Shown in pieces: positions 4,611 to 62,275 of a DNA stretch of 64,000 bases; the first letter of the stretch is position 1, and each line of letters opens with the position of its first letter. A model generated the notes under the pieces. It made no database searches. It saw only the letters and a list, made by a program, of their open reading frames with translations, and was not told the origin of the DNA. The position numbers and the translations under genes are program-made. The DNA lies in the NCBI RefSeq assembly GCF_028583425.1, contig NC_072801.1, positions 15,582,001 to 15,646,000 of the forward strand, read 5' to 3'. Source of the DNA: Eublepharis macularius (lineage: Eukaryota > Chordata > Lepidosauria > Squamata > Eublepharidae).

Positions 4611-4692
4611 GAAGAGTCCAGTAGCATCTTTAAGACTAACCAACTTTATTGTAGCATAAGCTTTCGAGAACCAAAGTTCTCTTCGTCAGATG
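4611..4692 (-). mobile_element. Penelope-type hammerhead unit, minus strand
   Basis: On the minus strand 4662-4689 reads CTGACGA, then a perfect hairpin AGAGAAC-TTTG-GTTCTC, then GAAA. The adjoining minus-strand arm (4611-4650) is the same arm as in the unit at 368-550. No clear duplication of the flanks was found. Confidence 0.6.
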
Positions 4693-11349: not shown

Positions 11350-12449
11350 TCATTATATCACAGTCCAAGCCTAAGAGGTCCATCATATAATTAGTTTTAT
11401 ACATATAAGACAATAATTAACAATATTAGTTGTAATTATACTCACATATACACTTCCACTAGTCACTCAATATTCTTGTCTTTAGCATCTGCCTTCCATT
11501 TTGGCGCATGTGAAGTGCAAGACCTTAATTGCAGTATATCAAGGGACTGGGAGAAAAACCCAAAGCACATTCAGAAAGTAATTAAAGGGCCAGAACTATT
11601 AGCACTCACAAATAAGGTGTAAAGTCAAGATCTATGTTCAGTCCTCTGGGATGGATTGTATTGAGTTTAAAGATTCACCAGGTCTCCTTTTGATTCAGTT
11701 CTCTCTTAATGAGTTCAATTTCCTTATGATGAGTTACAAAGATAACTGTGTGACTTAGATCCCTCTCTCTATGTTTTTCTTGAATATAGTGATTAACCAA
11801 GGGGGCATCTGCTGTTTTACAGCGTATCCATGAGAGATGTTCCTGTAGTCTTATTTTTATTGATCTTGTTGTATTCCAATATAAAATTTATTGCAAGGAG
11901 AACGTTTCAAAGATACTACATTCTGTGTATTGCAGTTAGTAAAAGGCAATATTTGTAAATTCAAATTAGATACTTCAGTCTTAGGCATTGCCAAATTGCA
12001 TGTTGAACAAGTGCCACAGCTGTGATGACCTCTAGGTAGATTGTTAACTGGAACCACTTGTCGATGTAAGTCAGAATGTATGAGTACATCCCTAATATTC
12101 TTGGTTCTCCATAGTGCTATTCTTGGTTGCAACTGACAGCCTGGAATGTCTTGAATCAGTGGCCAATATTTGAGTATGGTTTTCCTAATGGGATTCACTA
12201 AAGGCGAATAATCTAATGCAAAGGCCAGTCTGTTTTCTTTTCGCTTCTGTTTATCTATTAGAATGTTTTTCCTATCTCTGGTGTCCGCTTGTAGTTTGCA
12301 CTCCCTCACAACTGCACTCCGGTATCCTTTGTTTAGAAACTCATTTTCTAATCTATTACTATTGATCCTGTAATCTCGTATCAGGGTGGAATTCTATTTG
12401 ATTCTCGAGAACTGACTGTAAGGCAAATTACATCTTAGTGTGCAACCTG

Positions 12450-17718: not shown

Positions 17719-17840
17719 GTACTACCTAGTCCATCTAACCCCACAAGATCTTGCTTCGTTATGGCTGGTGCCACGCCTCCCGAGGACAGGTCGTTTTGCT
17801 CCGGACTGCTGCCTGGCCGTGGTGCGAGGACTAGTCGAAA

Positions 17841-18437
17841 ATGTCTTCTGGTAATGCTCATATTGGGAAGCCAGCTCCAGACTTCAGTACCACAGCAGTG
17901 GTGGATGGAGCCTTCAAGGAACTGAAGTTGTCGGACTACAAAGGCAAGTATTTGGTTTTCTTCTTCTACCCACTGGATTTCACCTTTGTCTGTCCCACGG
18001 AGATCACAACTTTCAGCGATCGAGTTGAAGAGTTCCGCAAGATCAACTGTGAGGTCATTGCTGCCTCTATCGACTCCCAGTTCACCCACCTGGCTTGGAT
18101 CAATACTCCAAGAAAGGAGGGGGGCTTGGGTCCCACAAGTATCCCACTGTTGGCTGACATCAATCACAGTATTGCCAAAGACTATGGAGTGCTCAAGGAG
18201 GACGATGGCATTGCCTATAGGGGTCTATTTATCATTGATGGCAAAGGCATTGTGCGACAGATCACAGTAAATGATCTTCCTGTGGGACGCTCAGTAGATG
18301 AGACACTGCGCCTTGTGCAGGCCTTCCAGTTCACAGACCAGCATGGTGAAGTGTGCCCAGCTGGCTGGCAACCTGGTGGTGACACTATCAAGCCCACTGC
18401 GAAAGACAGCAAGGAATATTTTGCCAAGCAGCACTAG
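17841..18437 (+). CDS. PRDX2-like: peroxiredoxin-2-like protein, intronless retrocopy
   Basis: The frame encodes 198 residues, the length of PRDX2 (PRDX1 has 199). Typical 2-Cys peroxiredoxins reduce hydrogen peroxide as head-to-tail dimers in the cytosol, recycled by thioredoxin. Seen here: active-site P44-x3-T48-x2-C51 in FVCPTE, R127, resolving C172 in EVCPAGW, the GGLG loop (94-97) and the C-terminal YF pair (193-194) that make the enzyme open to over-oxidation. Cysteines at 51, 70 and 172 only, and [20 protein letters not shown], fit PRDX2 rather than PRDX1, whose extra cysteine at 83 is a threonine here. The start is the first ATG after the retro-duplication. No frameshift or stop is present. 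It could be a young silent retrocopy or a working retrogene. The GC-rich 5' leader came with it, but no promoter can be asserted. Confidence 0.9.
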
Positions 18438-29340: not shown

Positions 29341-30858
29341 TTGCTTTTCTTCTCCCCCCACCCCACATAACTGTTCAGTATTCTTTCTACGGAGGGATGG
29401 ATTTGGGATCACTTTTAACAGCATTTTAAAGACTTGTTTATATGGAAGTGGAAAAAGCCCACCCTTTTTTCTTACAAATCCGCTTTTCCACACCCTCTCT
29501 GTTAATTCTTCCCTTTCCAAGTTAAATAGGATTTAATTGGCTTTTTTAAAACTTTCCTTTCCATCTCTTCTCCCTCTTGTTTTTCTTTCCCCTCCTCCTT
29601 TTTTATTTCCTGTTTAATCCTTTCATAGCTTCATCTTGGAATTTCAATAAAGAGATGGAACTTTTAAAGCCATTTCCATTGGGTAAAGGGCAGCTGTGAT
29701 GTGTGTGTTTGTATACACAAATGGATGATGTGGGTTTGTGTGGTGAGAAAAAGCTCGTATTATATAACATATTGGCAGCTTTCAACCACGATACCTTGTG
29801 AAATCTCTCTTGTTATGTTGTATGGATAACTTTCCTGTAAGGGAAGCAGGGTGTGCTTAGCACGGTATAGCAACAGTTGGACAGGTTCTGAATTGAAACT
29901 TGGAAAGGAAGGTGGGTGTGTTTAGATCATGCGTCCACTGAGAATCAAACCGTAGTCTGGTGCTCTGCCGTTGCAAGCGGGCACTGGGAGCTGTTTATGA
30001 CTTGACATTGGCTAGGGCATAATGTCATAAGTGCTTGAGAGGACAGCTTTGCCAAGCAGAGGTTTTGCAGATGGTGTGCATGTGTGTGCACGCAAATCCA
30101 TGCAATATTCTAGTATCTGCCTCATTAGAACACATGTGCGAAGTGGGGGGTGGTGGTGTGCGCATAGGGGTGCCAGATGTCTTTGAAAAGGTCACTCCTT
30201 ACACCGCACTTCGGGAACGTGCAACTGTTGAGCCAGCCTCTTGGAATGAATGAGGCTTGTGTGAGGGCACAGGTGTGTTCTCGTGCAAGCCCCGTCTGTT
30301 TCTGCCGGGATTGTGGAGGTGCCCTTTCTCTCTGAAGTATGCCGATCTCCTGTTTCTCCAGTAAAATACACAGTGCAGTCCTTAGAGCATCTGTTTCTTT
30401 TTGGCCCTTTGATCTGGTGTCCTGGTGCTTTTGGGGACAGGGTGCCTTTTCTAAGGCTGTTTGGAGGTTTGCATTATTTACCCTTGTTTCTCCGGGCATG
30501 GATGCCCCCATACCCCAAGGCAGGTGGTTCTAGCGGCTCTCTAATGAACAACATCGACCCTAAGGACCCTAATCTTAAGGATCTTGCCTCCTGGTTTCCT
30601 ACAGAATGTATCTTTGGACCAGCGGCTAGTAACCCTTCCTCCTACAGTTTAATGCTAGGAGATTTCTTTCCTTCGTCATCATTCCCAGGAGAACCGAAGC
30701 ACTGATTTAATGAAAGGGCTAACATGTGTATGTTGGCAGTATAAAGTTGGCGCATGAAAACTTCAAAAACGACAACTTCTGAAGCTGTAGTCATTTAAAA
30801 AAAAAAACTCCTCTATAAGCTTCACGAAGCCCTTAAAACAGGACTTCCTCCTATAAAG
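29341..30858. other. probable start of a long intron, no element recognised
   Basis: T-rich DNA after the donor, then mixed sequence. The frame at 30283-30705 (140 codons) resembles nothing known and is treated as chance. Confidence 0.3.
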
Positions 30859-31143
30859 ATCCAGAGCATCTGACAAAGAGAGCTGTGATTCTCGAACGCT
30901 TATGCTACAGTAAAGTTGGTTAGTCTTAAAGGTGCTACTGGACTCTTGTCCATTATCAGAAGCAAGCTGATCCCATTATCAGAAGCTACTGATTGCATCT
31001 ACTCCCCCCTTCCCTCTCCACCTATATATCTGACCAGTTTCTTCTTACCCGCCATGCATCTGACGAAGAGAATGTGATTCTCGAACGCTTATGCTACAGT
31101 AAAGTTGGTTAGTCTTAAAGGTGCTACTGGACTCTTTTCGATT
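30859..31143 (+). mobile_element. tandem dimer of the Penelope-type hammerhead unit
   Basis: Two head-to-tail copies about 190 bp apart (cores starting at 30870 and 31060), together flanked by the 14-bp duplication ttcctcctataaag (30845-30858, 31144-31157). Both carry GCATCTGAC at the core start, CTTATGC after it, and the arm ggttagtcttaaaggtgcta. A dimer between duplications suggests a single insertion event of a dimeric RNA. Confidence 0.75.
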
Positions 31144-31509
31144 TTCCTCCTATAAAGGGTTGTGTGTTTCTCAACCGTAGGCATAGCTGTCATTGCGCCA
31201 TGCTAGGATGCATGTTCTATGCTTTGTTTGGGGGTAGTGGTCTTTGAAAGAGTGAACTCCGTGCTGCATTGATGTTTGTTACTGTGGGATGCCGCTTTAT
31301 ATTTGCCAAATGCTGTGCAACCCTCCATCTCAAACAAACCTGTGAGGCAAGTCTTTGAGGTGGACGTTGCAAGGGAGAGAGAGAGACTTCGGTCATGTGT
31401 TTGTTGTAGCAGACTCAATATCAAGCAGGACTACCAAAAGGGAAGAATATGGGGGTGTGTGGAAGCCGTGCACCTGGGTCACCCAGGGGTCCATGGAGCT
31501 AACCAAGTA

Positions 31510-31594
31510 ATGCCACTGACGAAGAGAGCTGTGGTTCTCTAAAGCTTATACTACAATAAAGTTGGTTAGTCTTAAAGGTGCAACTGGACTCTTT
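31510..31594 (+). mobile_element. Penelope-type hammerhead unit, single
   Basis: Core CTGACGA at 31516 with a stem-loop gagagctgtggttctc, then AAAGCTTATACTAC and the shared arm. Flanks not resolved. Confidence 0.6.
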
Positions 31595-34038: not shown

Positions 34039-34086
34039 AGCATCTTACTTACGGTTGTTGTGGATTTTCCGGGCTGTATAGCCGTG

Positions 34087-34160
34087 GTCTTGGCATTATA
34101 GTTCCTGACATTTCGCCAGCAGCTGTGACTGGCATCTTCAGAAGTGTAGCACCAAAAGAC
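34087..34160 (-). ncRNA. hammerhead-type fold, left arm
   Basis: Mirror of 34222-34295: on the minus strand CTGAAGA begins at 34141 and GAAA ends at 34111. Confidence 0.6.
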
Positions 34161-34221
34161 AGAGATCTCTGAGAGATCTGATTATTTCCCTCTATTATTT
34201 CCCTCCCTCTGAGAGATCTCT

Positions 34222-34295
34222 GTCTTTTGGTGCTACACCTCTGAAGATGCCAGTCACAGCTGCTGGTGAAACGTCAGGAACTACAATGCCAAGAC
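34222..34295 (+). ncRNA. hammerhead-type fold, right arm
   Basis: CTGAAGA at 34241-34247, stem II from gccagtc/gctggt, GAAA at 34268-34271, then CGTC: the self-complementary ACGT can make a minimal stem III between two units, followed by the GUC site. Stem I forms from cct/agg plus an outer gtctt..gg / ccaagac helix. Confidence 0.65.
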
Positions 34296-34374
34296 CACGG
34301 CTATACAGCCTGGAAAATCTACAACAACCATCGTTCTCCGGCCGTGAAAGCCTTCGACAAAGCATCTTACTTAC

Positions 34375-42150: not shown

Positions 42151-42540
42151 TTTCAGGTAGGTAGCCTTCTTGGTCCACAATAGAACAGTAGGATTTGAGT
42201 CTCAGTATCTGAAGAAGGGAGCTTTGACTCTCGAAAGCCTATACACCAGGGCTTTTTTTCAGGGGGAATGTGGGGGAACGGAGTTCCGGAAGCTCTTGAA
42301 AATGGTCACATGGCTGGTGGCCCCGCCCCCTGATCCCCGGACAGAGGGGAGTTTAGATCGCCCTCCACCCGTGCGGAGGGCAATCTCAACTCCCCTGTCT
42401 GGAGATCAGGGGGCGGGGCCACCAGCCATGTGACCATTTTCTCCGAGGGCAACCCACTGAGTTCCACCACCTCTTTTCCCAGAAAAAAAGCCCTGCTATA
42501 CACTAAACATTGGTCTGTAAGGTGCCTCTGGACTCAGGTC
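42151..42540 (+). mobile_element. Penelope-type hammerhead unit split by a hAT insertion
   Basis: The left part (42151-42246) has CTGAAGA at 42209-42215, a stem-loop and GAAA at 42233-42236, then GCCTATACAC. The right part resumes at 42496 with ctatacac, then ggtctgtaaggtgcctctgg. It is a further sequence variant of the units at 368 and 30859. Confidence 0.65.
42247..42495 (-). mobile_element. family P hAT miniature, copy 8
   Basis: Perfect 8-bp duplication ctatacac (42239-42246, 42496-42503). R end left, L end right. Inserted in the hammerhead unit. Confidence 0.95.
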
Positions 42541-43357: not shown

Positions 43358-43442
43358 CACTGTTATACCCCGATGTATTGTCGAAGGCTTTCACGGCCGG
43401 AGAACGATGGTTGTTGTGAGTTTTCCGGGCTGTATTGCCGTG

Positions 43443-43516
43443 GTCTTGGCATTGTAGTTCCTGACGTTTCGCCAGCAGCTGTGGCTGGCATCTTCAGAGG
43501 TGTAGCACCAAAAGAC
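43443..43516 (-). ncRNA. hammerhead ribozyme-type fold, PLE left arm
   Basis: Mirror of 44322-44395; minus-strand core from 43497 (CTGAAGA) to 43467 (GAAA). Confidence 0.65.
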
Positions 43517-44321
43517 AGAGATCTCTCAGTGTCACAGTGTGGAAAAGATGTAGGTCATTTGTATCTACTCAGGAGGGGTGGGGTTGAGCTGAGTCATCCT
43601 GTAAGAGTTTCCCAGGGTGTGGAAGGCTAATGGCAGGAGGCTTCACTGTATCCTGAGGAGGTTCTTTTGCATATGGATTGGTACTTGATGTGCTAATCTT
43701 CTCTGCAGGGCTATTGTCGGGTGTGGAGTGTTTTGTTAGCCTGGTGTTTTTCATAACTGGAAACCATGCTCTGTTCATTCTTAAGGTTTCTTCTTTCCTG
43801 TTGAAGTTTTGCTTATGCTTGTGAATTTCAATGGCTTCCCTGTGCAGTCTGACAAAGTAGTTGGAAGTGTTGTCCAGTATTTTGGTGTCCTGGAATAAGA
43901 TACTGTGCCCTGTTTGAGTTAGGCTATGTTCAGCCACTGCTGATTTTTCAGGTTGTCCAAGTCTGCAATGTCTTTCCTGTTCTTTTATTCTTGTCTGGAT
44001 GCTACGCTTTGTGGTCCCGATGTAAACTTGTCCACAGCTGCAGGGTATACGGTATACTCCTGCAGAGGTGAGGGGGTCTCTGCTGTCTTTTGCTGATCAT
44101 AACAAAACATTCTATCCCCGACAATAGCCCTGCAGAGAAGATTAGCACATCAAATACCAATCCATATGCAAAAGAACCTTCTCAGGATACAGTGAAGCCT
44201 CCCACCATTAGCATTCCACACCCTGGGAAACTCGTACAGGATGACTCAGCTCAACCCCACCCCTCCTGAGTAGATATAAATGACCTACATCTTTTCCCCA
44301 CTGTGACACTGAGAGATCTCT

Positions 44322-44395
44322 GTCTTTTGGTGCTACACCTCTGAAGATGCCAGCCACAGCTGCTGGCGAAACGTCAGGAACTACAATGCCAAGAC
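44322..44395 (+). ncRNA. hammerhead ribozyme-type fold, PLE right arm
   Basis: CTGAAGA (44341-44347), stem II gccagcc..gctggc, GAAA (44368-44371), then CGTC, giving a self-complementary ACGT minimal stem III and a GUC site, then AGG pairing with the CCT before the core. An outer stem forms from gtctt..gg (44322-44330) and ccaagac (44389-44395). All core positions fit the consensus CUGANGA/GAAA. Confidence 0.7.
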
Positions 44396-44442
44396 CACGG
44401 CAATACAGCCCGGAAAACTCACAACAACCACTGTTATACCCC

Positions 44443-44590: not shown

Positions 44591-45172
44591 TACACACATC
44601 TACCTTTCTTTGCCCAGGCAAACCCAGTTTCTCTGGCCTTTGCCTGTGCAGTGAGGCACCTCTATTCATCGACTCTGGCTCTGCAAAGCTTTTTTCCTCT
44701 GGTTTCCCAGCCTTCAGCCTGCTCTTCTGTCTTCAATTGCCAGATCCCTTTTTCCAGGAGTTCACCTTAGCTTGCCTCCTTGACTGACAGTTGTGCTGCA
44801 GCCTTTGATTAGACTCTGAAAAGAAAAACAAAGGGCGGCCCCAAGTCCAAACAGAGAACACCAACAAACCGGGGAACCACAATTCTGGAAAATACTGTTG
44901 TATATTTTTCAAAGTGCAAGGTGCAAAAGTGCTAAGTAAGTTTAACATGCATCATGAATATATTTACAAAATACAAAGTCCATCCAATAGAACATCGAAG
45001 TCATCATAATCTCAAAGTCCATCCATTTATGAACTGAATCTTCATCGTCCGGAATATGTATGAAACTTTTAAAGTGCAAATGCTGAATATAATGAAAAAA
45101 GCCGGTGGGAGGGGAGACTTGTGCAGGTTGTTTGTTCTTTCACGGTCCAAAGTAGAAATAATTATTTAATAG

Positions 45173-45248
45173 ACGCCGACGGGAGTTTGCAGGCAAAATG
45201 TTGTTTACCCGTTTCGTGAGTGGAAAAAACTCACTTCATCCTGGGCAT
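45173..45248 (-). ncRNA. hammerhead-like fold with variant core, left arm
   Basis: Mirror of 45337-45412. Confidence 0.5.
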
Positions 45249-45336
45249 CCTGGACTCAGTCCGTGAATCCTTCTGTTGCAAGCGGTGGGGGAGTGTGTTG
45301 TGCAACTATGGATATGTTTCCGGTCTGATTATGTTT

Positions 45337-45412
45337 ATGCCCAGGATGAAGTGAGTTTTTTCCACTCACGAAACGGGTAAACAACATTTTGCCTGCAAAC
45401 TCCCGTCGGCGT
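45337..45412 (+). ncRNA. hammerhead-like fold with variant core, right arm
   Basis: ATGCC (45337-45341), CAGGATGA core (45342-45349), stem II gtgag..ctcac, GAAACGGG (45370-45377), loop, CCCGTC (45402-45407), GGCGT. ATGCC pairs with GGCGT (one wobble), ACGGG with CCCGT. All three stems form, but the core has an extra base relative to CUGAUGA, as also at 11300-11349. Confidence 0.55.
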
Positions 45413-45744
45413 CTATTAAATAATTATTTCTACTTTGGACCGTGAAAGAACAAACAACCTGCACAAGTCTCCCCTCCCACCGGCTTTTTTCATTATATTC
45501 AGCATTTGCACTTTAAAAGTTTCATACATATTCCGGACGATGAAGATTCAGTTCATAAATGGATGGACTTTGAGATTATGATGACTTCGATGTTCTATTG
45601 GATGGACTTTGTATTTTGTAAATATATTCATGATGCATGTTAAACTTACTTAGCACTTTTGCACCTTGCACTTTGAAAAATATACAACAGTATTTTCCAG
45701 AATTGTGGTTCCCCGGTTTGTTGGTGTTCTTTGATTAGACTCTG

Positions 45745-54813: not shown

Positions 54814-55056
54814 CAGGGCTTTTTTTTCTGGGGAAAGAGGTGGTGGAACTCAGTGGGTTGCCCTTGGAGAAAACGGTCACATGGCTGGTGGCCCCGCCCC
54901 CTGATCTCCAGACAGAGGGGAGTTGAGATTGCCCTCCGAGGGCAATCTCAACTCCCCTCTGTCTGGAGATCAGGGGGCGGGGCCACCAGCCATGTGACCG
55001 TTTTCGAGAGGTTCTGGAACTCCGTTCCAACACGTTCCCGCTGAAAAAAAGCCCTG
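54814..55056 (+). mobile_element. family P hAT miniature, copy 12
   Basis: Perfect 8-bp duplication ggtgcatc (54806-54813, 55057-55064). The palindrome closes with almost no spacer at gccctccgagggc. Confidence 0.95.
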
Positions 55057-61805: not shown

Positions 61806-62249
61806 CTCAGCCGAAAAGGAGGAGTCTCTGTATAAGAAGAGAAACAACCGAAGGAGGAATACTCCACAGAGACCAAAAGCAATCTAGTATAAATTTGATT
61901 ATATAATTATTATCAAAGAGCAAGTGCTCAAGTGCCATATAATTAAAGTGCAATCATCATTATGCATACAGTTAAAATTTTGGTCACATTCAATCAGGGT
62001 AATAATTAGCCATAATCCAATGCAAGAAAAGTCCATATGAAAGGTAATTCCCACTGTACATACAGTTCCAATAATCCTTGTCTTTTCTTTTTTCTTTGCC
62101 ATGATAAAAAAAATGTCACGGTACATAATGTTGATGATTGCACTTTAATTATATGGCACTTTTGCACTTGCACTTTGATAATAATTATATAATCAAATTT
62201 ATACTAGATTGCTTTTGGTCTCCTTGGAGTATTCCTCCTTCAGTTGTCA
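61806..62249. mobile_element. inverted-repeat retroelement, PLE-like layout
   Basis: Flanks ctcttaaccactac (61792-61805) and ctcttagccactac (62250-62263) match 13 of 14. After about 39 bp of single-copy text, arms at 61845-61960 and 62130-62246 mirror each other around a loop of about 170 bp. Same order of parts as 44819-45728 (duplication, short unique block, arm, loop, arm, duplication). No protein frame. No hammerhead core was found here. Confidence 0.75.
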
Positions 62250-62275
62250 CTCTTAGCCACTACACCAAACTACCT

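Follow-up and report, generated by a model that had tools for sequence, protein, structure and literature searches.

The 910-bp insert at positions 44819-45728 of the window (the whole stretch of 64,000 nt of Eublepharis macularius DNA that was analysed) is very probably a young copy of the pseudo-LTR (pLTR) region of a Penelope-like element (PLE), non-coding and inverted in head-to-head (5'-to-5') order, primed from both strands of its target. It combines features described for PLEs: inverted arms arranged head-to-head, a tail of 36-38 nt present on the left only, and an exact 16-bp target-site duplication (TSD). The integration of PLEs is still poorly understood, and an insert of this kind would provide a clean natural record of the extension of both target strands. 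The young copy with its perfect arms shares the 64 kb with three inserts of two other families built on the same plan, and the main interest lies in the one-sided tail, which is consistent in four inserts of three families. In addition, the altered hammerhead of the insert bears on the need for ribozyme cleavage in the movement of such elements.

Anatomy of the insert

The insert is located between exact direct repeats of 16 bp, CTTTGATTAGACTCTG, at 44803-44818 and 45729-45744, detected by the direct-repeat and flank search; the two copies match at 16/16 positions, as the first-pass annotation had claimed. Its left arm (44857-45248) and right arm (45337-45728) are 392 nt each and, according to the exact alignment that was run, identical at 392/392 positions with no mismatch, which bears out the exact complementarity proposed for them earlier; the 393 bp initially given for a near-perfect inverted repeat is correct within a 2-nt 'CT' ambiguity. 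The arms are separated by a loop (45249-45336) present as a single copy in the window, and its previously noted length of 88 nt was obtained again by the automated repeat search. This search placed the arms at 44844-45248 and 45337-45741, with 99% complementarity, and thereby extended them into the duplication; the three mismatches of the extended pair are all at its outer edge, at 44848, 44851, and 44854.

Both arms read from the hammerhead outwards to the end, the left one on the - strand and the right one on the + strand, hence their head-to-head arrangement. Beyond the left arm lies the 'tail', 44819-44856 (- strand), which is unpartnered on the right, the inverted match beginning at position 39 of the insert. 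The tail comprises 38 nt, or 36 nt if the two nucleotides 'CT' common to the arm end and the duplication are assigned to the arm. The copy is non-coding and contains no ORF. By eye, no poly-A tail is seen in the insert, and its left end is rich in A when read on the + strand, i.e., rich in T in the hammerhead-to-tail direction.

Two controls concern the chance occurrence of such duplications. When boundary pairs were drawn at random 200,000 times, pairs less than 100 bases apart being skipped, none had at least 14 bases in common, and when the flank search itself was applied to 1000 random pairs, none reached at least 12 bases and five reached 10. The age of the insert can be judged from the arms: there are 0 differences per 392 positions vs. 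12 per 329 in the neighbouring insert at 43372-44428, which points to a young insert, unless gene conversion acted between the arms or the neighbour's two arms were copied from different templates.

The hammerhead-like motif

Each arm carries a hammerhead-like motif, in line with the earlier claim. In the right arm (45337-45412, + strand), where all three stems had been expected to form, stems I, II, and III are of 5, 6, and 5 bp, and in the left arm (about 45171-45250, - strand, the outer positions being derived from the scan output) they are of 7, 6, and 5 bp. The three stems and GANGA...GAAA are present in both motifs. The core reads CAGGATGA in both arms, one RNA or source having served as the template of both; as already pointed out in the first-pass annotation, it departs from CUGANGA, being one base longer and carrying at least one further change, and is not a canonical core. 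The loop of stem III is 24 nt long, and from the putative cut site, which would follow the GUC at 45405-45407, about 320 nt remain to the inner end.

The motif was found by a hammerhead-geometry scan based on GANGA, stem II of at least 5 bp, GAAA, stem III of at least 4 bp, H17, stem I of at least 5 bp, and a core of 7 or 8 nt. The only matches in the window are the two arms, and 0 of 100 simulated first-order Markov windows gave any; with any 5-mer replacing GANGA, two matches were obtained in 20 simulated windows. An earlier version of the scan, allowing a 7-nt core only, gave no matches in the window, this motif included. Under the null used, chance does not account for the hammerhead geometry, though the thresholds were chosen post hoc, after the motif was seen. 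Since the geometry is confined to the two arms and does not occur in the simulated windows, the motif probably descends from a real hammerhead.

Neither in the window nor in the element is a hammerhead reported by Rfam. This result is uninformative, since Rfam also misses the hammerheads with canonical cores in the neighbouring insert. In the minimum-energy structures calculated with RNAfold stems I and II are retained and an alternative stem III is preferred; compared with shuffled sequences the folding is not clearly better (z = -0.66 for the right arm and -1.70 for the left arm). Positions C3, U4, G5, and A6 of the hammerhead core hardly vary, so a hammerhead with the core CAGGATGA is probably weak or inactive, and its departure from CUGANGA suggests a decayed copy.

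Inverted inserts and other repeats of the window

Parallels to the insert were found starting from the other inverted repeats and hammerhead cores in the window. The flanks were checked for 26 inverted repeats, i.e., the 25 longest of 41 pairs and, additionally, 368-550; six of the 26 have a flank word of at least 14 bases, and four were counted as inserts. The words of the repeats I12 (19 bases) and I13 (16 bases) were rejected as TSDs, as in both cases the word on the right begins within the right arm and represents repeated sequence in interspersed copies; the 17-base word of I3 was likewise regarded as repeated sequence. All four inverted inserts bordered by TSDs of at least 14 bp carry a hammerhead and exactly one tail, located downstream in the hammerhead-to-end sense, and they represent three families.

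The insert at 43372-44428 is located about 390 bp to the left of the one described above. It is bordered by a 14-bp TSD, CACTGTTATACCCC, has a tail of 36-38 nt on the left, arms identical at 317/329 positions and a loop of 361 nt, and contains canonical CTGAAGA...GAAA cores at 43467-43497 (-) and 44341-44371 (+). Inside it lies an ORF (43569-44096, - strand) with a GVY-(9)-YIG motif, which makes it GIY-YIG-like. Its Pfam match is a weak one (E = 0.03, 15.3 bits, below the cut-off of 20) to T5orf172, which we take to be a GIY-YIG relative, and a search of solved structures with this ORF gave 0 matches. The ORF crosses the loop into the left arm, so the tail-bearing cDNA would be the longer one in this insert.

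A smaller inverted insert, 34053-34360, is bordered by the 14-bp TSD AGCATCTTACTTAC and has a 31-nt tail on the right. This tail is contained unchanged in the 38-nt tail of 43372-44428, and the tail-less arms of the two inserts end at most one base apart; on these sequence grounds both are assigned to one family, within which the centres measure 361 nt (43372-44428) vs. 31 nt (34053-34360). The remaining insert, 368-550, has a 14-bp TSD, TGCAGGAGGAAAGA, three bases of which are common to the arm, a tail of 32-35 nt on the left, and a canonical CTGACGA core; its family differs from that of the preceding two.

Not all hammerhead copies in the window follow the inverted plan, as a direct pair and several copies outside the count of four indicate. 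At 30859-31143 two hammerhead copies (30873 and 31063) are arranged in direct, not inverted, order and are flanked, by eye, by two copies of TTCCTCCTATAAAG (30845-30858 and 31144-31157). Outside the count are the copy at 42209, with an 8-bp TSD candidate; the copy 4612-4686, for which no inverted arm was found and whose 10-base word is of a length that occurs occasionally by chance in the windows used; and the copy 31519-31594, with 7-base words only. The inverted repeat 61837-62254 (93%) shares 79% over 57 columns with the arms of 44819-45728. The motif GCACTTTTGCAC-TTGCACTTTGA is common to the two as well, and 61837-62254, with a flank word of 8 bp only, is also outside the count. Another inverted repeat, at 54869-55005, is a perfect one of 68 nt with a 1-nt centre and an 8-bp flank word, TGGAACTC.

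It is also worth mentioning two further ORFs. The one at 11857-12393 (-) ends near CNKFYIG after a CGTCSTC stretch and by eye resembles the region before a PLE endonuclease; it has no Pfam support, and neither of the two PLE-like ORFs in the window gave a Pfam match at E up to 0.01. At 17835-18437 there is an uninterrupted peroxiredoxin-like ORF (AhpC-TSA, E = 2.8e-39), perhaps a retrocopy.

Origin of the insert and its relation to known systems

The 16-bp duplication, the tail on one side only, and the three parallels in the window support, short of proof, the preference of the first-pass annotation for target-primed insertion over a DNA transposon; the earlier reading omitted the Penelope-like architecture, which accounts jointly for the inverted arms, the duplication, and the ribozyme. 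DNA transposons usually generate TSDs that are fixed in length and shorter than 16 bp. The arms, being long, perfect, and inverted, would suit a DNA transposon of the foldback or MITE type whose termini are long inverted repeats. This origin is extremely unlikely and was rejected: the duplication is too long for it, the left terminus of the insert is the unpaired tail of 36-38 nt, which makes the left arm non-terminal, and each arm has hammerhead geometry. Twin-priming inversion of a LINE was also rejected, as the arms duplicate one sequence and not two different parts. Perfectly identical arms of 392 bp are what a fold-back chimera introduced during sequencing or assembly would produce. Judged by the sequence, such an artefact is unlikely in the highest degree, since the mirror symmetry ends at the 16-bp direct duplication and does not continue into the flank, and nearby inverted inserts with diverged arms follow the same plan.

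PLEs, whose pLTR copies occur in either direct or inverted head-to-head order, carry hammerheads in many cases though not in all. Mechanistic data come from Poseidon (PAc) of Anolis carolinensis, for which PMC11167929 reports that the purified protein cuts and extends both target strands. Reverse transcription begins there at two adjacent internal RNA sites, the spacing of which equals the 30-40-bp tail, and mutants of the hammerhead are unaffected in insertion in vitro (PMC11167929). In the insertion at 44819-45728 the hammerhead was probably dispensable. From the anatomy, the duplication, the arms, the tail, and the three parallels observed in the window we infer an enzyme, priming on both strands, and an order of events as follows. 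The element RNA, with the hammerhead in its last-copied part, would be bound by a PLE reverse transcriptase/GIY-YIG endonuclease, and the two strands of the target would be cut at points separated by about 16 nt. The ends so produced would each prime reverse transcription at an internal RNA site, on the left at the outer site, yielding the tail, and on the right about 36-38 nt further in, yielding none. Both cDNAs would run through the hammerhead, and another 88 nt would be added to one, probably that on the left; finally, the far ends of the cDNAs would be joined and the gaps filled. Stem I of 7 bp on the left vs. 5 bp on the right suggests that the 88-nt loop is an extension of the left cDNA, the one bearing the tail, as would also be the case in 43372-44428.

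Nearly the same product would be yielded by the snap-back of a single cDNA, and this tells against priming from both strands. An element of the same class could have moved by self-priming, the left, tailed cDNA folding back after the 88-nt loop, copying 392 nt, and stopping 36-38 nt short. This course, possible but unlikely, accounts for the loop and for perfect arms derived from one template, and in PMC3846280 it is favoured for inverted Penelope copies on the basis of palindromes at the junction. It demands, however, that copying stop at the same place every time, and the loss of the tail at points at most one base apart in 43372-44428 and 34053-34360 better fits a second fixed start, a comparison of two inserts only. 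Moreover, following the reasoning in PMC3846280, a sense template would give tail-to-tail arms, and head-to-head arms need an antisense one. Alternatively, the transcript of an older, already inverted locus may have been retrotransposed, so that the mirror form itself multiplies; this is very unlikely, as the centres of 361 vs. 31 nt within one family are those expected of separate joining events. The assignment to PLEs has further points against it: the copy codes for nothing, so no enzyme, such as the telomerase-like reverse transcriptase and GIY-YIG endonuclease of endonuclease-containing PLEs, is tied to the family by sequence; none of the other three inserts gives a match to its arms at E up to 1e-3; and the distance between the tail-less end and the start of the hammerhead is about 385 nt vs. 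about 90 nt in 34053-34360. The preference reported for the anole protein, cutting at ATT in AT-rich DNA (PMC11167929), may also weigh against the assignment. A search for relatives with four patterns in viral contigs (one of them for the family of the neighbour) and one in genome contigs gave 0 matches; since vertebrate DNA is not expected in these collections, the result has no bearing on rarity.

A more far-reaching interpretation, which we regard as doubtful, makes the one-sided tail a rule: the subunits of an enzyme dimer would start at two fixed RNA sites 31-38 nt apart, one per target strand, and, as part of the same proposal, CAGGATGA could be a working hammerhead core of its family. 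If true, inverted PLE copies would arise directly from paired reverse transcription rather than from self-priming by accident.

Among the elements of known organization, the insert resembles the endonuclease-containing Penelope elements of Adineta vaga, such as Pen2a, in which inverted pLTRs are most often head-to-head; an optional 31-bp tail is found on one inverted pLTR, and the TSD is of 8-10 bp in the cases described (PMC3846280). The insert likewise has head-to-head arms, a tail on one arm, and a TSD. It differs from the cases described in that source, which combine the pLTRs with an ORF or captured gene, in having no ORF, a tail of 36-38 nt, and a duplication of 16 bp; it also carries a hammerhead-like motif, whereas the word hammerhead does not occur in the main text of PMC3846280. 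With Poseidon it shares hammerhead geometry near the pLTR end and a tail of 30-40 nt downstream of it. In PAc, however, the core retains C3 and G8, whereas that of the insert reads CAGGATGA; the cut site of PAc is at 26 bp of the ORF and the starts of reverse transcription follow about 90 nt later, at 111-118 bp of the ORF (PMC11167929), as compared with about 320 nt from the putative cut site to the inner end in the insert. Within the window, the TSD, head-to-head arms, a tail on one side only, and hammerhead geometry upstream of it recur in 43372-44428 and 34053-34360, but these two form a separate family with the canonical CTGAAGA core, and the arms of 43372-44428 have diverged (12/329). 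The insert most likely represents a new, non-autonomous member of an already described PLE arrangement.
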